Of a stretch of DNA of 30,819 nt, positions 1 to 20,985 are shown piece after piece. Origin of the DNA: a virus. The notes below the pieces were generated by a model that made no database searches, was not told the DNA's origin, and saw only the letters and a program-made list of their open reading frames with translations. Location of the stretch: positions 1 through 30,819 of the IMG/VR virus record IMGVR_UViG_3300038696_000294; one strand, written 5' to 3'. A program made the translations under genes and the position numbers. The stretch's first letter is position 1. Every line of letters begins with the position of its first letter.

Positions 1-662
1 GCAGCCAATGGGGCGTGTCACTCAGCTACATGATCCAGCCCAGTCCCGACGGGCTGGCGCAGGCCTTCATCTTGGGCGAGACGTTCCTTGATGGCGCACC
101 CTCCGCCATGGTGCTGGGCGACAATATTTTCTTTGGTCATGGACTGCCTGACCTGTTGGGAGAAGCTGACAAAACCACAACAGGTGCAACGGTCTTTGGC
201 TATCGCGTCGCCGACCCGGAGCGATATGGTGTGGTGGATTTCGACGACGACGGTACTGTGCGGGCAATCATCGAAAAACCCACTGTGCCGCCCTCGAACT
301 ATGCCGTAACGGGACTTTACTTCATGGATAGCACGGCACCTGAACGAGCCAAGGCTGTACGCCCTTCGGCCCGCGGCGAGCTCGAGATCACGAGCCTATT
401 GGAAAGCTACCTTCACGACGGCGCGCTAAGCGTGCAGAAAATGGGGCGTGGCTTTGCCTGGCTGGACACCGGCACCCATGCCAGCCTTCTGGATGCGGGT
501 AATTTTGTGCGCACCTTGACCGAACGGCAGGGTCAGCAAGTCGGTTCGCCCGACGAGGTCGCCTTCGAGATGGGCTGGATTGATACAACCCAACTTAAAG
601 CCCGCGCAGAGCAGTTCGGCAAGAATGGCTATGGGGAATATCTCAGCGGACTTCGACGGTAA
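1..662 (+). CDS. rmlA: Glucose-1-phosphate thymidylyltransferase, 5' end outside window
   Basis: The enzyme joins dTTP and glucose-1-phosphate to give dTDP-glucose, the first step to dTDP-L-rhamnose for surface polysaccharide. The reading frame is already open at the left edge (codons from base 3), so the first 70 or so residues of this roughly 290-aa family are missing only because the window starts here. Visible family motifs include QPSPDGLAQAF, VLGDNIFFGHGL, the IIEKP loop, PSNYAVTGLYF, SARGELEIT and the C-terminal WLDTGTH. The match to E. coli RmlA is close along the whole visible part, and the gene looks intact to its TAA stop. It is the only + strand gene I support and the only clear host gene. 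It runs convergently into the phage late genes. Other rml genes, if present, would lie left of the window. Confidence 0.95.
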   Translation, partial: SQWGVSLSYMIQPSPDGLAQAFILGETFLDGAPSAMVLGDNIFFGHGLPDLLGEADKTTTGATVFGYRVADPERYGVVDFDDDGTVRAIIEKPTVPPSNYAVTGLYFMDSTAPERAKAVRPSARGELEITSLLESYLHDGALSVQKMGRGFAWLDTGTHASLLDAGNFVRTLTERQGQQVGSPDEVAFEMGWIDTTQLKARAEQFGKNGYGEYLSGLRR

Positions 663-824: not shown

Positions 825-1547
825 TCACATTAAAATCGCAACATAATCCGGCGTGTAACTGAACGTATACCGCCAGCCTGCCGGAATGAGGACAGTTGCA
901 CTGACACCGTATCGGGCGGCAGCGATCATGGTCCAACCCGCGCCCGGGGCGGCTCCAGACAACCGACACTGGGAAGAAGATGTGTCGTAATAGGAGATCA
1001 GGATCGGACGGCCAGTTTCGTTGAGGTATTCGGCACCACCCTGTCGGTTGACCTGTGACCAAGTTTGGCCCCAGCCAATTGCATTGGCCAGCATATGCTG
1101 CTCGACGGAGGCGGCGCTCATGAGTTTTTCGACTGCAACACCAGCGCGCGCCTCGGCCAAACTCGCGATATCTGCAGCGATGGTGCGATTGGCACCGAGG
1201 TCGCCGCCGCCCGTGAGGCCAATGCCAGTTTCAACACGGCGGCTGTCACTGACCATGGCCTCCAGCGCCGTCTGCATGGCGCTGGAGACAGGCTTGTCCC
1301 GATCGGCCGTGTTGTTCACCTGCCCAAGGCCAACATCTGCGGCGGTCAGCATGACCTCCCCGGTCTTGCCCGCCACGGAACGGACAGTTCCCAGCTCCAC
1401 GATTGTGAAAGTGCCGTTGCCATTGTCGCGTTTGAGATAGAGTTTGCCATCGCGGGTGTTGATGGCCAATTCCCCGAGATCGATCTGTGCCGTTGTTGGC
1501 ACCTTTCCGGGCACGGCGGAGCGTTTGCTGAGCAGCTTTGACGTCAT
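825..1547 (-). CDS. Short tail-fibre-like protein, last gene of phage late region
   Basis: This 240-aa protein is likely a receptor-contacting fibre or fibre tip. Residues 8-54 resemble fibre N-terminal modules of the type GELAINTRDGKLYLK. Next comes a collar-like segment, VAGKTGEVMLTAADVGLGQV followed by NNTADRDKPVS, a pattern common in phage fibres. Residues 100-140 are glycine- and alanine-rich (GIGLTGGGDLGANRTIAADI). The C-terminal 70 residues hold a beta-rich tip with YLNETGRPILISYYD and IPAGWRYTFSY. The start codon overlaps the previous stop (ATGA at 1544-1547), so translation is probably coupled. The closest internal relative is the 268-aa protein at 17676-18482, which carries a similar VNGQAGEVAL motif. 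Fibre is well supported; the receptor is unknown. Confidence 0.75.
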   Translation of the reverse strand: MTSKLLSKRSAVPGKVPTTAQIDLGELAINTRDGKLYLKRDNGNGTFTIVELGTVRSVAGKTGEVMLTAADVGLGQVNNTADRDKPVSSAMQTALEAMVSDSRRVETGIGLTGGGDLGANRTIAADIASLAEARAGVAVEKLMSAASVEQHMLANAIGWGQTWSQVNRQGGAEYLNETGRPILISYYDTSSSQCRLSGAAPGAGWTMIAAARYGVSATVLIPAGWRYTFSYTPDYVAILM

Positions 1548-2170
1548 GGTCCCACGGCCTCCTGGGCTTTGGCAAATGCGATGACCGCCGTTGGAGCGCC
1601 ATCGATGACGGCCCGCGCCGCGGCGCGTTCGGCATCGTCACGGACGACCTCCGGGTTTGGCACCATTATCGTCCCGGTCTGTTCGCCTGTCGTCTCGTCG
1701 TAAACCGTTTGCTCGGTCTCAGCAGGAAGCGGATCGATCGCGACCTGCACAACGACGGCCTCCATCACCGGCTCGCCGGTCGTCTCGTCGAACACGGGCT
1801 GCCCCTGCTCGTCGAGCGCCTGCTGCTCCTCGGTGACCTCGGCCCGCCCGTCGGCCAGCCGGTAACGCACCAGTCGCGCCTGCGCCGCCCGGCAGGCCAC
1901 GAGCTGGTGGTTGAATAGGTTGTTTTCGCCGTTGACGAAGTTGTCGGCTTCCCAGCCCAGAGCGAAAGCCTCGTAGGAGACGTGCCCCAGCGCCTGCACC
2001 ACGTCCAAGAGCCTGGCGGGCAAATTGTCGTGCGGGATGACGCGCAACAATTCCTCATCACCCCTGCGCGCACCCGCCAGGGCAAGATCGGACACTACAT
2101 AGGACATGCCACGTTTGGGGGCCTGCCGTACGCTCAGGGGCGCATCGCCCTTCTGAATGAATACTGTCAT
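1544..2170 (-). CDS. Hypothetical fibre-cluster protein with acidic DETTGE repeats
   Basis: This 208-aa protein is not confidently assigned to a family. The N-terminal half is compact and mixed, with aromatic residues in SYEAFALGWEADNFVNGENN. The second half has two DETTGE motifs in an acidic, proline-containing stretch that looks flexible, followed by an alanine-rich helix (DDAERAAARAVIDGAPTAVI). It sits between two fibre-cluster genes, starts 3 bases after the upstream stop and is translationally coupled to the downstream fibre (ATGA overlap). The position would suit a fibre-assembly chaperone or fibre-bound accessory protein, but no sequence motif proves that. The helix-rich C-terminus would also fit an attachment segment. 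Confidence 0.6.
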   Translation of the reverse strand: MTVFIQKGDAPLSVRQAPKRGMSYVVSDLALAGARRGDEELLRVIPHDNLPARLLDVVQALGHVSYEAFALGWEADNFVNGENNLFNHQLVACRAAQARLVRYRLADGRAEVTEEQQALDEQGQPVFDETTGEPVMEAVVVQVAIDPLPAETEQTVYDETTGEQTGTIMVPNPEVVRDDAERAAARAVIDGAPTAVIAFAKAQEAVGP

Positions 2171-2173
2171 GGA

Positions 2174-2473
2174 TCAGACCTCCCGCACGCAGATTGCGCC
2201 CACGTCCACCGTGGCCGGAGCCACCGCAAAAACCAGCGAATAGATGAACCCGTCATAGCTGACGGCATAGTCCTCGCCCGTGCCGGGGCGTTTTAGCGCG
2301 CCGTCCACGTAGACGAACTTCGGCTTCCACCCCCGCGGCAGCGCGAAAGCAGTCAGTGCGCCGGTGCCGGAGAACCAGAAGGCTTCCTGCGCGACGCCAG
2401 CGGCGACCTTCGCCCGGAGCGAAGCAAGCTCCTCACGAAGGTTCAGAGCGGGTTTCTCGATGTTCACAGTCAT
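2174..2473 (-). CDS. Small beta-sandwich-like fibre accessory protein
   Basis: This 99-aa protein starts with a short helix (residues 8-28, LNLREELASLRAKV). It continues with a beta-rich module containing FVYVDGALKRPGTGEDYAVS and YDGFIYSLVFAVAPA. That pattern (a YVDG-type strand, a DY-V pair, then FAVAP near the end) resembles small beta-sandwich modules found in phage fibres and tail decorations; this is a family-style inference, not a firm assignment. The ATG lies 4 bases after the stop of the large spike at 2478, so it is co-transcribed and probably coupled. It may cap or decorate the spike made just upstream. Confidence 0.6.
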   Translation of the reverse strand: MTVNIEKPALNLREELASLRAKVAAGVAQEAFWFSGTGALTAFALPRGWKPKFVYVDGALKRPGTGEDYAVSYDGFIYSLVFAVAPATVDVGAICVREV

Positions 2474-2477
2474 GGAT

Positions 2478-4985
2478 TTACTGCTCCGCGATCATGCCGC
2501 CCACCGCCGAGATCGCGGTCGTGACGGGGTTTTCGGTATTTGCCACGCGGACGAGGCCGTCGAATACGCTGCGGCCTTGGCTGGTGCCCACATGCAACAG
2601 GTTGGTCTTGGGATCGCGGGCCAGCGCTGTGACCGCATCGCTCGTGCCGTAAAGTGTGCACTGAGCACCCGGCATGAACAGCTTGCGCTCTTCCTCGTAG
2701 ATTTTGGCAATCTGGTCCGGGACGGGTGCAGTGTCGGAGATACGCCAGAGAGCATAGCGCATCGCCTCGTTGCCACCACCGATATCAGCTGACACCCCGA
2801 AATACATCGGCTGGTCGCTGATGACGTCATAGGCGTTTGCAATTCCACCTGCTGATAGTTTCCCATCAAGATAGACGCTCAGCTCGCTATTGCGGCGCAT
2901 CATGGTAACATGTGTCCAAACCCCAATCGGGGTGGCTTGCGCGGCCGAAATTCCATTGTTTCCAACGGTCAGGACGAGGGCTCGCGACGAAGTTGAGGTA
3001 AAACGCCAGATGTATAGGCCGGTGTCCGCACCGCCCATGCCTTTGCGTTGCAAGACTGCGGTGGTTGAATGGCCGCCCGGATCAAACACCCAAAACATGA
3101 CGGAGAAGTCACCAGTTCCAAAATTCAGCCCAGAGTTATACGGCTGAACTAGATATTTTTCGGACCCCGATACAGATCGGAACCCGCTATATGCGACCAG
3201 CTCCGCACCGGCGGCCACCGGGATGCGCGTGATTGTGCCATTGACGATAAGTCCGCCTGGTCCGCCCCCAGACGCCAGTGGGTTTTGATGTCGGTCAAAA
3301 TCGACCTCTTTGACCGACATCCTCAAAATGGTTGTTGTTGCGTTTGTCTGACTGAGCAAGATACCAATATTTTGGAAGCCCGGCATCGCTTTTGCGTAAA
3401 ACACTTGGGTTGTTGGCTCTGAAACTGCGCCCAGAACGTAGTATACGCGGCCAGCAAACTGGATGCGGTTTCCAGAAGCAGATGTGGTCGAGTTGTTGTA
3501 TTGGATCTCTACGCGGTAATACTTGTTGTCCTTGATCCCAGGCAGATTTCGGTTGAGCGATCGGTCGCTGCCGTTTTGTTCGGTAATTGTCACTTGTCCC
3601 AGGATAGACCAGTCAACGCCATCGGCAGAGTATGACCACAAAGAGCTGTCGATCATATCCGCGTCGTCATTCAGCTCAGCAGAAGTAACTAGGTCAGTCT
3701 TATCAGTTTCAGCTAAAAATACTGCCTTTGTGTTGCGAGGTGCGAAGTATGGAGCGTGATCCCACCCATGAAATGATGCCAAACCATCATTGTCGCTGTC
3801 AGTGTAATAGAGAGTCGCTAGGCCGGTTGTGTAGCTCCCACAAGCCAATGTTCCGTCGTTCGCAAGCAAGGTACTAAAGCCGTGAACGTTGCTATCGTTG
3901 GTCCGCGGCAAGTTCCAACCATTAATCCCGACATCGTATAGCGCATCACCTGCTGCATGGTTGTTTAAAAGCGCAGAGGCATTCTCATCCGGCAGCGCGT
4001 TGAATTGGACGACAGCACCGTAGCCGTTAACAGAATAGTGAGCGTCGTGGATGAACAACCTTCCGTCAGCATCGAAGGCAACACGCATCGTGCGATTGCT
4101 GCCCCAATTTAAAATATCAATCACTGCTCCGTTATCCCTGATAACCGAGGTTCCGCCGCTAGTCGCCGCCGCGATCGTCGGTATAGGTAGGCCTGTTGCC
4201 GGATCGACTGGCGCGTCGGGGAGGACGGTTATGGCGACGTCGTTGACGCGGTTGTTTAAGATCGGTCCGTAGTAGGCGTCTTGGACGATGTTCTTGTTGT
4301 CGTTTCTTTCAGATATCGTTCCCTTGTAGAGATGAGACCCAAGGCTACTGGTGTTAAGATAGCGGCCCGTTTCAGCCAAAAACGATACAACGTTCAAGGC
4401 ATAAGGGCTTGCACCAATCACCAAAACTGCGTTGTGCATAACGATGGACGTAAGCGTCGAAGTTGCACCGCCATAGATCATGTCGGTGTCAAAATCGTTA
4501 TCAAACACCATCCACATCGGCAGCGCAGGGTCATCACCATCGTAGATCGTCAGGCGGTTTTCCTCCGCCACGATCACCGCGACCGCCGGAAACTCCCGGC
4601 GCGCCCCGCGCGTGGCCGTGTTGAGCGGCTCGTTATACCAGCTTGTGTGCTGGCACCGCTTGCGCCATGCCCCGCCGTCGCTGTCAAGACTCGTGTCGTA
4701 GACGAATATGTCCACGGCGGTCACGGCCTTCTCCGCGAGGATCGCCCCGATGCCCTCGTAGGTCACGTTGGCTTTCACGGTTGCGAGATGGGTGGCGGCG
4801 TCGGCCGCGTGCGCCGCCGACTCGTCCCGGACCGCCTCGGTCGCGGTCTGTTCGGCCTGCGCGGAGATCACCTCGGCCTCGGCCTGCGCGACCTGCGCGT
4901 CGAGCTGCACCTTTGTGACATTCGCTTCGGCGGCCAGCTGATCAACCGATCCGGTCAGCTTCGAGATGGAGCTCATCAGGGTCAT
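2478..4985 (-). CDS. Large tail spike A: coiled coil, jelly-roll and LamG-like modules
   Basis: This 835-aa protein is a probable receptor-binding spike. I chose the ATG at 4985 because AGGA sits 8 bases upstream; the longer frame to 5027 has no such site. Residues 10-72 are an Ala/Glu-rich coiled coil. Residues 83-161 form a module shared with spike B (SDGGAWR, NEPLNTATRGARREFP, LPMWMVF). Residues 161-430 have blade-like repeats (DADGRLFIHDAHY, LANDGTLACGSY) suggesting a beta-propeller. Residues 440-565 look like a jelly-roll. Residues 615-745 look like a LamG/concanavalin A fold (GTGDFSVMFWVFD, WTHVTMMRR, LSVYLDGKL). Residues 750-835 form a C-terminal cap shared with spike B (CTLYGTSDAVTAL, LLHVGTSQGRSVF). 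The middle is AT-richer than both ends. Domain names are inferred by eye. Confidence 0.8.
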   Translation of the reverse strand: MTLMSSISKLTGSVDQLAAEANVTKVQLDAQVAQAEAEVISAQAEQTATEAVRDESAAHAADAATHLATVKANVTYEGIGAILAEKAVTAVDIFVYDTSLDSDGGAWRKRCQHTSWYNEPLNTATRGARREFPAVAVIVAEENRLTIYDGDDPALPMWMVFDNDFDTDMIYGGATSTLTSIVMHNAVLVIGASPYALNVVSFLAETGRYLNTSSLGSHLYKGTISERNDNKNIVQDAYYGPILNNRVNDVAITVLPDAPVDPATGLPIPTIAAATSGGTSVIRDNGAVIDILNWGSNRTMRVAFDADGRLFIHDAHYSVNGYGAVVQFNALPDENASALLNNHAAGDALYDVGINGWNLPRTNDSNVHGFSTLLANDGTLACGSYTTGLATLYYTDSDNDGLASFHGWDHAPYFAPRNTKAVFLAETDKTDLVTSAELNDDADMIDSSLWSYSADGVDWSILGQVTITEQNGSDRSLNRNLPGIKDNKYYRVEIQYNNSTTSASGNRIQFAGRVYYVLGAVSEPTTQVFYAKAMPGFQNIGILLSQTNATTTILRMSVKEVDFDRHQNPLASGGGPGGLIVNGTITRIPVAAGAELVAYSGFRSVSGSEKYLVQPYNSGLNFGTGDFSVMFWVFDPGGHSTTAVLQRKGMGGADTGLYIWRFTSTSSRALVLTVGNNGISAAQATPIGVWTHVTMMRRNSELSVYLDGKLSAGGIANAYDVISDQPMYFGVSADIGGGNEAMRYALWRISDTAPVPDQIAKIYEEERKLFMPGAQCTLYGTSDAVTALARDPKTNLLHVGTSQGRSVFDGLVRVANTENPVTTAISAVGGMIAEQ

Positions 4986-5017
4986 ATGTTCGGTCCTCGA
5001 AGGGGGGAGATGGGTTG

Positions 5018-5047
5018 GGGGCGGCACAGCACGGTCAGCGCCGCCCC
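5018..5047 (-). other. GC-rich hairpin between the two spike genes
   Basis: The 69-bp spacer between spike B (stop at 5055) and spike A (start 4985) contains a perfect 8-bp inverted repeat. GGGGCGGC at 5018-5025 pairs with GCCGCCCC at 5040-5047, around a 14-base loop. No T run follows in either direction, so a classical intrinsic terminator is not supported. It could be an RNA stability or attenuation element that sets the ratio of the two spikes, or simply GC-rich chance. The spacer is longer than most gene junctions nearby. Confidence 0.45.
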
Positions 5048-5054
5048 GCCCGGA

Positions 5055-7229
5055 TTATTCTTCGACGACCATGCCGCCAGCGGCCGCGATGGCCTTGGTG
5101 ACGGGAACTGTCGTTTTGGCAACCCGGCGCAGGCCCTTGAACACCGACCGGCCTGCCGAGGTGCCGACGTGCAGAAGCCCTGTGTCCGGATCGTGCGCAA
5201 GGGCAGTTACCGCGTCCGACGCGCCGTAGAGCGTGCAGGCGGCGTCTGCTTGGAACAGGAACCGCTCGTCGGCCTGGATCTTGGCAAGCTGGGCGGCCGT
5301 CGGTGTGGTCGCGGTGACGCGCACCAGCGCCTTCGGCTTCGTCCCGGCGATCTTGAGGGTCGCCCCCGTGATCGACAGGCCGTCGATAGACGCGGCGCTG
5401 ACGACCCCGTGCTTGAACTCCCAAACGCCCGCGGTTTGCTCCCAGCCAAGCGCATAGAGCGTGTCGGCGTAGGTCGCGTCGGTGCCTTCGAGATAGTTGG
5501 TCTCGGAGAAGCCGCTGTAGGCGATCAGCTCTGCGCCAGAGGCGACGGGCGCCCGGGTGATTGTGCCGTTGACCACGAGGCCACGGGCGTTCACCGAGCG
5601 GTCGGCGTCGACGGCGCGAACAGACACATTGTCGTAAAGCGTGGTGGTGGGGCCAGAGGCGTAATTCAGAATAGTCAGATAAGTGGTGGTCGATTGGGCT
5701 GTGAACTCAAGAACCACTGATCCGGAACTCGCCCCAGCGAGAAATTGACTAAGGTTATTATTTCCGTAAGCAAAAGAGCTTACCCAAAACCATGTCCCAG
5801 CATTTTGGCTAAAAGAAACCGTCCAGCGATACCTTTGCCCGACAACAGTTGCTATTGTTTGGCGCGCAGACACATCGGAAGTCGTTACAGTTGAGACAGC
5901 TATTGCGCCCGATGCGTCCCACTCCACCAAAGACGGGTCTGATGCGTCCCACCCAGAAATGTCGGTATCGAACGTCCCATTCGTCACCAACTCAGACCCA
6001 ACCATATCGGCGTCGTCGGTATCCGCGAGGAACGCGCCGCGAATGTTTCCGGGCATCCAGCCTGTGGCGTAAGTAGAGGTGCGGCCGAGAATTAAACTGG
6101 CAGCAAAATTCTGCCAGTTGATGACGCCAAGTCCCTGACCGCCCCGAAAATAGCGCCCGATATAATCAGCATCGCGACCAGCAAACAGAACCCTTTCATT
6201 AGCTGAGTTTGCTCCCAAGCCAATACTGGGTGTTTGAGAGCCCATCAAAAAACGCTGGTCGGTCTCATAGTCCCATACGTTTTGCCCCCAAAACGCAGTT
6301 GAAGATATGCCGGACAAAGCAACCTTTGTTCCAAGTATATCCAGTCTCGAAACACGACCGCCTTGCGTGGGGTGCATCTGCGCGCTGATGACAGTCCCAT
6401 CGTTCTTAATCACCGAGGCGCCACCTTCAGTCGCCACCGCAATCGTCGGCACCGGAAGCCCCGTCGCAGGATCAATCGGGGTGTCGGAAAGGACGGTCAT
6501 GGCTACGTCGTTGATAAACGCGTTGATGAGAGAGCCGGAGAGAATTTGGGCCGAAAGGTTCAGGTTCCTTTGAATTATGCTCCCCAAGATAACTGCCCGC
6601 GGCGGATTGTATCGTTCTGCTTTTTCGGACACGAAATCGACAAGCTGCAGGCCGTTGATTGAAGACCCAACCGCCATTTTACCGTTCAGAAATGAAACGG
6701 ACGTTCCGCCTGATAGCAGCCGGACCATGTTCCCGCCGCCATCGTTAAACACCATCCACATCGGCAGCGCCGGATCAACACCGTCATAGATCGTGACGCG
6801 GTTCACCTCAGCGACGATCAAAGCCACTGCCGGGAACTCGCGCCGTGCGCCACGGGTCGCAGTATTCAATGGCTCATTGAACCACGATGTCCCGGCGCAG
6901 CGATGCCGCCACGCGCCGCCGTCGCTGTCCTTGGAGGTGTCGTAGATGAACACATCGACCGCCGTGATGGCTTTCTCGGCCGCGAGCGCGGTCAGGTCCT
7001 GATATGCCACCGCCGAGGCAGCAGACTGGGCAGCAGTGTAAGCGGCGTCTTTGAACGCCCCGGCCTGATCCCGCGCGGACAGGGTGTTGGTCTTTGCGTT
7101 TTGCGCCTGCGTGGTGGCGGACTGCGCGTCGACAACCGACGCATCGAGGGTGGCCTTTTTTGTGACGACGGCGGCCCTAAGCTCGTCCACCGAGGTCGCG
7201 AGGCTGTCCACTTGCTGTTCGACGGTCAT
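5055..7229 (-). CDS. Large tail spike B, paralogue of spike A with CBM-like module
   Basis: This 724-aa protein is a probable receptor-binding spike and a tandem paralogue of spike A. Residues 1-75 form a heptad-like helix of the same length as in A but with little sequence in common. Residues 82-160 nearly repeat A's shared module at the same positions (VFIYDTSKDSDGGAWR, NEPLNTATRGARREFP, LPMWMVF). Residues 160-400 hold blade-like repeats, including PIDPATGLPVPTIAVAT, also seen in A. Residues 410-545 resemble a family 4/9-type carbohydrate-binding module (ELVTNGTFDTDISGWD). The linker GLVVNGTITRAPVASGAELI and the C-terminal cap (CTLYGASDAVTAL, LLHVGTSAGRSVF) match A, but A's LamG-like module is replaced by about 60 unrelated residues. 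Sugar binding is inferred from fold style only. Confidence 0.8.
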   Translation of the reverse strand: MTVEQQVDSLATSVDELRAAVVTKKATLDASVVDAQSATTQAQNAKTNTLSARDQAGAFKDAAYTAAQSAASAVAYQDLTALAAEKAITAVDVFIYDTSKDSDGGAWRHRCAGTSWFNEPLNTATRGARREFPAVALIVAEVNRVTIYDGVDPALPMWMVFNDGGGNMVRLLSGGTSVSFLNGKMAVGSSINGLQLVDFVSEKAERYNPPRAVILGSIIQRNLNLSAQILSGSLINAFINDVAMTVLSDTPIDPATGLPVPTIAVATEGGASVIKNDGTVISAQMHPTQGGRVSRLDILGTKVALSGISSTAFWGQNVWDYETDQRFLMGSQTPSIGLGANSANERVLFAGRDADYIGRYFRGGQGLGVINWQNFAASLILGRTSTYATGWMPGNIRGAFLADTDDADMVGSELVTNGTFDTDISGWDASDPSLVEWDASGAIAVSTVTTSDVSARQTIATVVGQRYRWTVSFSQNAGTWFWVSSFAYGNNNLSQFLAGASSGSVVLEFTAQSTTTYLTILNYASGPTTTLYDNVSVRAVDADRSVNARGLVVNGTITRAPVASGAELIAYSGFSETNYLEGTDATYADTLYALGWEQTAGVWEFKHGVVSAASIDGLSITGATLKIAGTKPKALVRVTATTPTAAQLAKIQADERFLFQADAACTLYGASDAVTALAHDPDTGLLHVGTSAGRSVFKGLRRVAKTTVPVTKAIAAAGGMVVEE

Positions 7230-7241
7230 TGGCGGGGCTCC

Positions 7242-7946
7242 TTAGGAAAAGGCGACGGCGGCGACGTAACGCGTCTGAGAATTGGTGAAGGCAGTCGCCA
7301 TTTCGAGCATGGCGGTCTGAATTTCGGTGAGCGATCCGGCGGCGTCCTCAACGGTGCCGATGTTGTTGGCCACCACCTGGATTTCCTCAGAGAGCGGGGC
7401 AACCACGGCAGCAGCACCCGATGCGGTCACGGCACTGGCGGCGGCATTGGCCTCGCTTTGGGCCGCCGCCTGCTGGGAGCCGAGGGCCGCAACCTTCGAG
7501 GCGGCGGCAGCCTGTTCCGACGCAGCAGCATTGGCCTCGGAGGTGCCTGCCTGCGTCGCGGATGACGCACCGTCGATCTTGCTTTGCGCGGCCTGCGATG
7601 CGCTGACCTCGGCTGCATCTTCCGAGTCCTTGGCATTGCCAGCCGAAACAAACGCCTCGGACGCCTTGGCCACAGAAGAGGTCGCAGCATTTTGCGCGGC
7701 AGTCAGCTGGGTGCCAAATGTCGCCAGCTGCGCCTGGCCAGCTTCGATTGCCGCTTGCGCCGCGATCATCTGATCATAGGTCGCGTAGGCTGGCAGGTCC
7801 ACATAGGCGGTCAGGCCATCGCCGACCTTGTTGATCCCGGTGTCGATTTCAAAGCCGAGCTCGCCTTCATCGAGGATCGGGTTTGCCGCGGCCCATTCAG
7901 CCGCCGTTCCCCGGCGCATCTGAATTTTCGCGAATACGGTGCTCAT
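7242..7946 (-). CDS. Fibre/anchor protein with Mtd-like N-terminal domain and Ala-rich coil
   Basis: In this 234-aa protein, residues 5-55 (IQMRRGTAAEWAAANPILDE, GELGFEIDTGINKVGDGLTA) closely fit the small N-terminal domain first known from major tropism determinant proteins, widely used to attach fibres to tails. Residues 60-185 are an alanine/serine-rich coiled coil with many AAAS-type repeats, typical of trimeric fibre shafts. The C-terminus (residues 185-234) is short, with no clear binding head. The gene starts by an ATGA overlap with the 156-aa gene and is followed 12 bases later by spike B. It may be the connector on which the spikes, which lack this domain, are mounted. No variable C-type lectin domain or retroelement accompanies it here. 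Confidence 0.75.
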   Translation of the reverse strand: MSTVFAKIQMRRGTAAEWAAANPILDEGELGFEIDTGINKVGDGLTAYVDLPAYATYDQMIAAQAAIEAGQAQLATFGTQLTAAQNAATSSVAKASEAFVSAGNAKDSEDAAEVSASQAAQSKIDGASSATQAGTSEANAAASEQAAAASKVAALGSQQAAAQSEANAAASAVTASGAAAVVAPLSEEIQVVANNIGTVEDAAGSLTEIQTAMLEMATAFTNSQTRYVAAVAFS

Positions 7947-18678: not shown

Positions 18679-20985
18679 TCAGGTCTGGGCGTATTCGATC
18701 AGCTCACTGACGAGAAACGGCACCGCCGCGCTCACCGTAGAGCCGATGATCTTGACCGCGTAGGTGCTGACCGAGGCTACATTGAAGATCGAGGTCCGCC
18801 GCACTGTGCCATCGGCCAGCACCACGTCCTCAACCACATCGGCTGCCTCCACGCCGTCCAGCGCAGCACCGGTCATGAGCGTCACGGTGCAATCGTGGTT
18901 CACCTCTTCAAAATGTTGCAGATCCGTGACCACCTTGACGCTGGTTGTGGGCGAGCCGAGCGTGCGTGCGTCGGACACCCAGGTGAACGCCGTCTTTGGC
19001 CGGGTGGCGACCGTCTGTGAGCCCGCAAGCCCGAAGCCCGGCATCAGGTCTGTGGTGCCCGTGAGCGTCATCCGCAGCGGCAAGATGCCCGGCAGACCCG
19101 AGAGGTCCGGACCGCTGGTATCACCATCGAGCGCCACCCAGGCCCCGTTCACCTGCACCTCGATATCAGTGCGGCAGGCAGGTGGTGTCACGCCTTCGTG
19201 CAGCACATCGAGATCGAGAATACCGCCCGCCAGCTGCAGTGCTGTCAGCTCGACCGAGAGCCGCGTGCGCTCGAACCGCGCAAAGTAGAGCCGCATTTTC
19301 ATGTCATCGACAAGGTTGCCCGCAAAAAACGCGCCATCAGTCGAGACAAAGAACGTGCCCTGCACCACCCCGTTGTCGGTATTGGTCATGGCGACATAAT
19401 GATCACCGGTGGTGACCAGCACGATCGCATAGCGCCGTCCGGCCGTCAGGAAGGTTGGCGTGATCGGCAGTTTGCTCTCCACCAGCGATGGCAGGCCCAC
19501 CTCCGTCGAGATCGCCCCCACCTGAATGTCCGCCACCGGCAGCGTCGTGCGCGAGATCACCCGCGACAGGTCCGGCATGCCGAAGGCGGTCTCGGTCACC
19601 AGCAGTGTGACATCCCCCGCGGCGGCCTTTCGCGAGAAGTAAAGCCCAACCTGGCTCAGCCAGCCATCCTGCGAGTTCAGGAAGGTCTGGGCCACTTGCT
19701 GGCCGTTGATCGTGGCCGTGGTCGTGACCCGGTCCCAGTATTGCTCCTCATAGGTGTCGATCCAAAACCGCCGCACCCGGATCCAGTGCACATTGCCATT
19801 GGGCACACGCGCACCATTGGGCATGCGGTCCGGCAGGCCGTTGGTGACCTCCCAGGTCTCGCCATCCCGGCGGAAGATATTGCCTGCCAGATCATAGGTG
19901 CCCTGGCGCCACCAGCGGCTGTTGGTGCAGACCACCATGGAGTTGCCATAGCGCCGCCGCGTGCGGGCGCGTGTGAGCTGGCGAATATCCGTGGTCTCGA
20001 AGGTGTACTGCGCCAGCCGCGTCTCGGAGGCATAGCCCGTCAGATCAAGCCGGATGCCATGGGCGTATTTGGGCAGCACGAACCCGCTGGTATCGGCGAT
20101 ATAGACGTTGTTGGGGTTCAGCAGTGCCAGTTCCGAGGTTTCCGAGCCCGCCCGTGGAAACCGGATGCCTTCCTCGACCACCGCGTCAAAATCGGGGTGG
20201 TCGACATTTGAGCCTTCTGCCGTCAGAAAATGGTTGGTGCCATAGTAGATATAAGCGCCCGGCGCATAGACCTCGGTGCGCAGCTCATCGAGCTGCTCCG
20301 TCAATTCCACAATCTCGGCCTTGGTGGCATAGCCCGCCAGCCGGTCCGCCAGCGCCGACAGATCCGTGCGCAGCGTATCGACCTGGCCGCTGATCTGGCC
20401 GCGCCAGCGCTCCAGCGCAATCGTGCGGTTGGCAACATTGCGCAGGTTTGGCAGCTGTGTCGCCTGCCACTGCTCGATCGCCACAACGCCGGTGGTGTCG
20501 AGCAGCACATAGGCGATCACCGTCACATTGGCATCCGTGGCGGGATAGCTGGGGTCCGGCCCTTCGGTGCCCGCCACGGTTGAGATTTCTGCGCGGCGCA
20601 GGCTTTCCATCGCCACTGATTGCGGCTCGGTGGTACCGGTCTGCGCATCGATCAGGAAGTCGCGGGGCTGGATATCCGTCTCGACCTCCTGGCCGAAGCT
20701 GACGATCGCCACCCGCTTACGGGTCACCAGCGGCAGCACGTTGAAGAGATCAACGATGATGTCCTCGCCGCGTGCATAGACCGCGCCCCCCGCATAAAGC
20801 CTGCCCGCCGACAGCGTGATTTCGGTGGCGGCCGTTTTGGTGGCCGAGAAACCGGAATAGGCCTTGCCGCTTTCAACCGCATCGCGAACGATGTGATCCA
20901 TTGAGGTGCGGGCAAAGTCCTGCATGTTGTTGAGATCGGCGGATTGCAGCTCCTGCCGATCGCGGTAGATGACGGTGCGTTCCAT
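18679..20985 (-). CDS. Large baseplate/tail appendage protein, DUF4815-like
   Basis: This 768-aa protein is a large structural component next to the baseplate wedge. The N-terminus (MERTVIYRDRQELQSADLNN, MQDFARTSMDHI) followed by a beta module (LSAGRLYAGGAVYARGEDII) resembles DUF4815-type phage proteins, but I treat that as tentative. Residues 205-245 contain a coiled coil (GQVDTLRTDLSALADRLAGY, IVELTEQLDELRTEV). The rest is mostly beta with aromatic-rich parts (SRWWRQGTYDLAGNIFRRDG). No catalytic motif is visible. It starts 3 bases after the gpI stop region and takes the place of P2 gene H. It is probably an arm or fibre base rather than an enzyme. Confidence 0.7.
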   Translation of the reverse strand: MERTVIYRDRQELQSADLNNMQDFARTSMDHIVRDAVESGKAYSGFSATKTAATEITLSAGRLYAGGAVYARGEDIIVDLFNVLPLVTRKRVAIVSFGQEVETDIQPRDFLIDAQTGTTEPQSVAMESLRRAEISTVAGTEGPDPSYPATDANVTVIAYVLLDTTGVVAIEQWQATQLPNLRNVANRTIALERWRGQISGQVDTLRTDLSALADRLAGYATKAEIVELTEQLDELRTEVYAPGAYIYYGTNHFLTAEGSNVDHPDFDAVVEEGIRFPRAGSETSELALLNPNNVYIADTSGFVLPKYAHGIRLDLTGYASETRLAQYTFETTDIRQLTRARTRRRYGNSMVVCTNSRWWRQGTYDLAGNIFRRDGETWEVTNGLPDRMPNGARVPNGNVHWIRVRRFWIDTYEEQYWDRVTTTATINGQQVAQTFLNSQDGWLSQVGLYFSRKAAAGDVTLLVTETAFGMPDLSRVISRTTLPVADIQVGAISTEVGLPSLVESKLPITPTFLTAGRRYAIVLVTTGDHYVAMTNTDNGVVQGTFFVSTDGAFFAGNLVDDMKMRLYFARFERTRLSVELTALQLAGGILDLDVLHEGVTPPACRTDIEVQVNGAWVALDGDTSGPDLSGLPGILPLRMTLTGTTDLMPGFGLAGSQTVATRPKTAFTWVSDARTLGSPTTSVKVVTDLQHFEEVNHDCTVTLMTGAALDGVEAADVVEDVVLADGTVRRTSIFNVASVSTYAVKIIGSTVSAAVPFLVSELIEYAQT

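Follow-up and report, generated by a model that had tools for sequence, protein, structure and literature searches.

Tandem paralogous spike genes with slot-specific ends and mixed centres in a Rhodobacterales contractile-tail prophage

Introduction

Among described systems, the closest kind to the locus analysed here is the spike cluster of the Ackermannviridae, in which TSP1–TSP4 have conserved, slot-specific N-terminal ends and share modules between slots at a conserved motif, GTTAVSL (PMC8432352). Recombination between spike genes of these phages has also been observed in the laboratory (PMC11414711). The variable part of these proteins is the C-terminal end behind a single joint, and their architecture comprises XD and TD domains and beta-helices. 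In the T5-like phages DT57C and DT571/2, LtfA and LtfB stand in for a single lateral fibre, and a branched organisation is proposed for them (PMC4728585). By that description, the T5-like system and the present locus are alike in having two proteins, although LtfA and LtfB are siphophage fibres. Streptococcus thermophilus phages are known to carry one antireceptor gene per phage. A variable stretch in that gene, VR2, has been used to predict host specificity (PMC5311409), and the likeness to the present locus, again by description, is that the variable stretch lies inside the gene.

The locus described below resembles the Ackermannviridae arrangement in its several clustered spike genes, its slot-specific N-terminal ends and the sharing of modules between slots. 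It differs in that the C-terminal end is conserved and slot-specific, several joints lie inside the protein, and the centre consists of a propeller-like region, a jelly roll and a LamG module. No Gp10-like XD domain was found in the N-terminal parts of the two spikes with Pfam or NCBIfam, and the family profile matched no solved chain there. The locus appears to work like its closest known counterpart, which is a statement about operation and not about membership. The LamG or concanavalin A-like lectin domain (PF13385) is, in these spikes, one module within a larger scaffold. That receptor-binding proteins can be modular, recombining and multiple was already known; what appears to be new is that both ends are fixed by slot, with the modules between them.

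Results

Organization of the spike locus

The window, by which we mean the whole 30.8-kb IMG/VR virus record, is a Rhodobacterales contractile-tail prophage whose spike locus consists of two same-strand paralogues, B followed by A. A sheath, an FII tube and tail protein I are all present, as expected of a P2-like contractile tail, but the minus-strand head genes are of a different type (lambda-family portal, S49 protease, capsid E). A 768-aa gene that follows tail protein I (18679–20985, minus strand) matches phrog_17470, of unknown function, over its full length (2e-174). Along the direction of transcription, the tape measure and lysis genes are followed by a 156-aa gene, the Mtd_N protein, spike B and spike A; downstream of spike A, on the same strand, three genes follow that encode 99, 208 and 240 aa, the last of them fibre-like, and beyond these lies a nucleotidyl transferase gene on the opposite strand. 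The principal features are as follows.

7242–7946, minus strand: Mtd_N protein, upstream of the spikes (PF18454, 1.9e-13), with a coiled-coil-like body
5055–7229, minus strand: spike B, first of the pair, 724 aa, intact ORF
2478–4985, minus strand: spike A, second of the pair, 835 aa from ATG 4985, in a frame open to GTG 5027
2174–2473, minus strand: 99-aa partner gene, which comes after the spikes in relatives
1544–2170, minus strand: 208-aa partner gene, which comes after the 99-aa gene in relatives
3–662, plus strand: nucleotidyl transferase gene (PF00483, rmlA-like), at the prophage end

Relatives of the Mtd_N-type protein also precede more distant spikes, and relatives of the 99-aa and 208-aa genes trail the spikes of differently anchored phages too. 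In single-spike relatives (L057, for example), relatives of all three proteins are present as well. The Mtd_N protein is a possible adaptor for the spikes. The 99-aa and 208-aa genes, neither of which matched a family in Pfam, PHROGs or NCBIfam, perhaps encode an assembly helper or tip protein. The end of the Shimia haliotis prophage (L039 15629–16279) adjoins a nucleotidyl transferase gene 83% identical to that of the window, which suggests a shared insertion place, possibly one beside a surface-sugar gene.

The initial annotation had described the two genes as tandem paralogous spikes with conserved ends and linker and with differing coiled-coil starts and centres. This description is borne out by two intact minus-strand ORFs in that place, by similarity well beyond chance (tblastn E 1e-78 for the N-terminal part and 4e-30 for the C-terminal part) and by 64% identity over the last ~92 residues. 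Spike A is read from ATG 4985 rather than GTG 5027, since the shared blocks fall at identical positions only with that start; the MTLMSS start is also kept in relatives. Common to both proteins, besides the last ~92 residues, are D1 (residues 81–162), one PIDPATGLPVPTI-type motif each and the linkers, one of which has the shared pattern GL.VNGTITR.PVA.GAEL.AYSGF. Outside the N-terminal part, the blade motif, the linkers and the C block, comparison of A with B is near the limit of alignment.

Details of the earlier description had to be revised. The block it placed at residues 83–161 does occupy identical positions, as 81–162 counted from the ATG, but it is not uniform, residues 81–120 being slot-specific and residues 121–162 carrying no slot signal. 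In place of the blade repeats it listed, each protein contains one clear PIDPATGLPVPTI motif and no repeat series. The parts of the two proteins, all on the minus strand, are listed here from N- to C-terminus.

Spike B
6990–7229, minus strand: coiled-coil N-terminal end, residues 1–80, slot-specific (84% identical within the slot, 30% between slots; B clade 100%)
6744–6989, minus strand: D1, residues 81–162, slot-specific in its first half and, from about residue 121 on, a recombination joint
6063–6743, minus strand: variable propeller-like region, residues 163–389, with one conserved blade motif at 6390–6515
5994–6062, minus strand: linker 1, residues 390–412, with a nearby joint in L008_B/L015_B at codon 378
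5595–5993, minus strand: variable jelly-roll (CBM-like) module, residues 413–545
5508–5594, minus strand: linker 2, residues 546–574
5328–5507, minus strand: short module replacing LamG, residues 575–634, 94% identical in sequence to single spikes L010–L012
5058–5327, minus strand: C block, residues 635–724, slot-specific from about residue 646

Spike A
4746–4985, minus strand: coiled-coil N-terminal end, residues 1–80, slot-specific (76% within the slot, 30% between)
4500–4745, minus strand: D1, residues 81–162
3750–4499, minus strand: variable propeller-like region, residues 163–412, blade motif at 4122–4247
3681–3749, minus strand: linker 1, a divergent copy
3288–3680, minus strand: variable jelly-roll (CBM-like) module
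3180–3287, minus strand: linker 2 (GGLIVNGTITRIPVAAGAELVAYSGF)
2778–3128, minus strand: LamG module (PF13385, E 1.4e-9; 38.7 bits against a Pfam cut-off of 27.6)
2481–2750, minus strand: C block, slot-specific (84% within the slot, 63% between; A clade 99%)

Spike B had no Pfam match, LamG included, and D1, the blade and the C block of both spikes matched no family in Pfam, PHROGs or NCBIfam.

The ends of the spikes sort by slot, and their centres are mixed

Slots were compared across ten tandem pairs (20 spikes). In this sample the coiled coils are 76–84% identical within a slot and 30% between slots, and the C blocks 84% and 73% within the slots and 63% between them, whereas the variable parts of the centre are only ~20–33% identical whether spikes of the same or of different slots are compared (A–A, B–B and A–B alike). 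The blade and the linkers are well conserved, yet without a consistent slot difference. With a sliding measure, the slot signal is lost at residue ~120, stays at about zero between residues ~121 and ~640, and returns near residue 646.

Phylogenies agree with this partition. A and B form perfectly separated clades, with 99–100% support, both for the N-terminal end (as far as residue ~120) and for the final ~85 residues, whereas they are mixed in trees of the centre, for which a single A clade is rejected (p-AU 1.3e-6); the linkers alone, which are too short, do not reject one A clade (p-AU 0.55). The nearest relative of both the N-terminal and the C-terminal end belongs to the same slot in all 20 spikes. 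In the CBM and LamG modules, most nearest relatives are differently anchored spikes, and the propeller-like region shows an even split. Same-slot neighbours in the centre include the close pairs L008/L015 and L040/L055. Sharing of putative binding modules between slots at conserved joints (D1b and the linkers) is therefore found here as well; this cross-slot, A-to-B transfer is seen through tree mixing and moderate identities, with no near-identical DNA. Between the window and L008, the flanking genes are 84–96% identical and the spike centres ~30%. No close donor of the window's own centres was found in the scans, which returned distant CBM relatives only.

Joints and exchanged blocks

When related phages are compared, DNA identity changes sharply within the latter half of D1, at each of the two linkers and ahead of the C block. 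L038_B and L040_B are 90–100% identical to codon ~130, where the alignment is lost. The single spikes L006 and L010 agree at 90–100% up to and including the D1 motif and, for the most part, once more beyond the start of linker 2; their centres differ, and L010 has no CBM. In L040_A/L055_A identity is 74% over the first 60 codons and 93% over the remainder, a 30-nt profile climbing to 90–100% from codon ~131; in L008_B/L015_B identity rises from 88.4 to 99.2% at codon 378, adjoining linker 1. Neither of the latter two steps was reached in 500 codon permutations. In addition, L005_A has a stretch of 520 nt in common, at 94% identity, with the single spike L010, whose anchor is different. The A spike is common to L040 and L055 and the B centre is not, which implies that the slots change independently.

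Together, the tree conflict, the lost slot signal, the identity steps and the modules held in common with other phages uphold the earlier proposal that centres are exchanged by recombination at shared flanks. Two side observations concern the same family. The otherwise nearly identical L010 and L012 differ over ~50 codons within the C block (codons ~590–640), and their last ~30 codons are again nearly identical; this difference inside the C block is a putative fresh small exchange. A Thalassovita litoralis contig (L041) carries a jelly-roll module with 98% identity to that in the A spike of Shimia haliotis (L039).

Relatives and distribution

Relatives were collected by scans of IMG/VR and of GTDB genomes. 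The same pair occurs in loci L005, L007, L008, L015 and L055. Rhodobacterales hosts that carry it are Shimia haliotis, two Pseudooceanicola MAGs and one Paracoccaceae MAG. The order is B then A in all tandem pairs found, and the surrounding gene order is conserved. In a Loktanella MAG the pair has decayed (L042 484–4222), B being cut to 598 aa and A split into two ORFs. Scanning with the sequences of A anchors picked out eight viral contigs with an A anchor, and in each of them B lies upstream; L078 and L114 break off within B and are uninformative on the pairing of the A anchor. The initial annotation had taken constant presence of both genes with uniform divergence along their length as the pattern that would speak against exchange; the lineage does carry both genes throughout, but their divergence is far from uniform.

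A single spike is found in more distant relatives. In a draw of genomes from the Shimia family, four of 395 match, three with two matches each (the pair) and one with a single, more distant match. Spike relatives are encoded in 444 viral loci; in the 80 that were kept, D1 and the following scaffold stand behind many different N-terminal ends, mostly in single spikes. L085, L165 and L092 resemble additional tandem pairs, differently anchored, which may have arisen by independent duplication. The scaffold is common in marine viral contigs and has weak relatives on Azospirillum plasmids. It had no significant match in 50,697 phage records, and searches of phage isolates yielded weak central matches only.

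Modules, fold and base composition

LamG is present in 49 of the 58 members scanned, in both slots, and CBM_4_9 in seven. The description of LamG as confined to A is thus correct within the window, where B has no Pfam match, but not for the family, and LamG was rejected as a marker of the A slot. A short allele takes its place in spike B of the window, in both spikes of L005, in L007_B and in the single spikes L006, L010, L012, L014 and L026. Matches of the family profile at the LamG stretch include pentraxins, an S-layer protein and an arabinanase. The blade weakly resembles the C block (hhalign E 7e-4 at 27% probability, against E 0.09 or worse for permuted controls), and WD40 matches weakly in three of the 58 members (best E 0.26). 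The propeller assignment is founded on this weak blade–C block likeness, which also hints that both ends perhaps form one propeller closed around the inserted modules.

As first noted, the centres are AT-richer than the ends. GC content is 62–68% in the end segments and 47–53% in the propeller-like and jelly-roll parts, and the difference is also visible at third codon positions. The argument that this marks swapped-in modules is weak, however. Across 100 spikes, the centre is AT-richer than the ends by ~4 to 6.5 points on average in every backbone GC class, so that the composition of the centre is no sign of recent acquisition here; centre GC3 also tracks the phage's own GC (r 0.87). AT-richness was accordingly rejected as a mark of recent foreign origin, and it is a lasting property of the module or its supply.

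Discussion

As read from sequence, paralogy of the two genes, fixed ends, mixed centres, joints and independent change of the slots are established. A and B are predicted to be virion spikes, the centre probably being the part that touches the host surface. Based on these data, we consider it probable that the tandem spikes derive from one ancestor and combine slot-fixed ends with interchangeable centres, which are replaced by homologous recombination between phages. In such a model, the coiled coil would give each spike a docking site of its own, possibly on the Mtd_N protein, and D1 and the C block would frame the variable part, in which the propeller-like region, the optional CBM-like jelly roll and the LamG or short module would contact surface sugars. 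Co-infecting or resident phages would recombine at D1b, linker 1, linker 2 or before the C block, swapping whole centres or single modules and leaving docking intact. The slots would vary independently, drawing on modules also present in the single spikes of many other phages, and one slot could change while the other keeps working.

Low identity between centres could also be the product of point mutation under arms-race selection, with no exchange and with ends that are merely constrained. Fast divergence alone could attain the ~20–27% identity seen between centres in nearly all pairs, but it does not predict sharp identity steps within pairs, a 94% identical block held in common with a differently anchored spike, or the presence and absence of whole CBM and LamG modules, and a single A clade for the centre is rejected; we regard this account as highly unlikely. 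A different question is whether the slot signal at the ends reflects a slot-specific job at all, or arises passively where exchange tracts stop short of the gene ends. Double crossovers within genes do leave the outer parts in place, and the short linkers carry no slot signal. The divergence of the coiled coils between slots (30% against 76–84% within), together with the consistent finding of B upstream of A-type anchors, is more in keeping with different docking roles, and passive ends seem to us unlikely, if worth keeping in mind.

The pair might, alternatively, include a spare duplicate that serves as a sequence store outside the virion. The decayed Loktanella pair would suit this idea, but neither frame is broken in any of ten pairs, whose starts and ends are conserved, which makes it very unlikely. 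Programmed switching within one genome, by a diversity-generating retroelement, an invertase or silent cassettes, is brought to mind by the upstream gene, whose Mtd_N domain is named after a Bordetella phage tropism protein. The variable part of Mtd is its C-terminus, the very part that is conserved here. A Pfam scan of the 16 proteins of the window found no reverse transcriptase, as an Mtd-type retroelement would have, and no recombinase; no family of short near-identical repeats in the 30.8-kb record, of the template/variable kind, ends in the spikes; and only imperfect, scattered inverted repeats lie close to the genes. Across the 18-kb tandem loci, no spike part occurs outside the two spike ORFs, so that no silent cassettes are seen. 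Programmed switching was rejected on these grounds and is scarcely credible.

Recombination between phages thus remains our preferred explanation for the mixed centres, and the fixed ends suggest that each slot fits its own attachment point, in which case the two slots would represent two host-binding specificities, renewable singly. The dual receptor, heteromeric tip and host switching put forward in the initial annotation stay at the level of inference. Beyond the pair itself, we tentatively propose, at somewhat less than even confidence, that the spikes represent an undescribed closed-frame scaffold (the N-terminal part and the C block, perhaps one propeller) that takes up lectin-like modules as inserts, and of which the two-slot version renews one specificity and keeps the other.

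More generally, slot-fixed ends on two sides and several inner joints make these genes a clear natural record of phages trading host-binding parts. The scaffold marker DSDGGAW...TSWYNE allows hundreds of such spikes to be gathered from viral contigs and their modules to be read against host surface types. With 444 viral relatives and none in the isolate records searched, this is an unworked group that could be opened by expressing a few centres and testing their binding. If the proposed explanation is true, a temperate phage with two slots could renew one host specificity while retaining the other.
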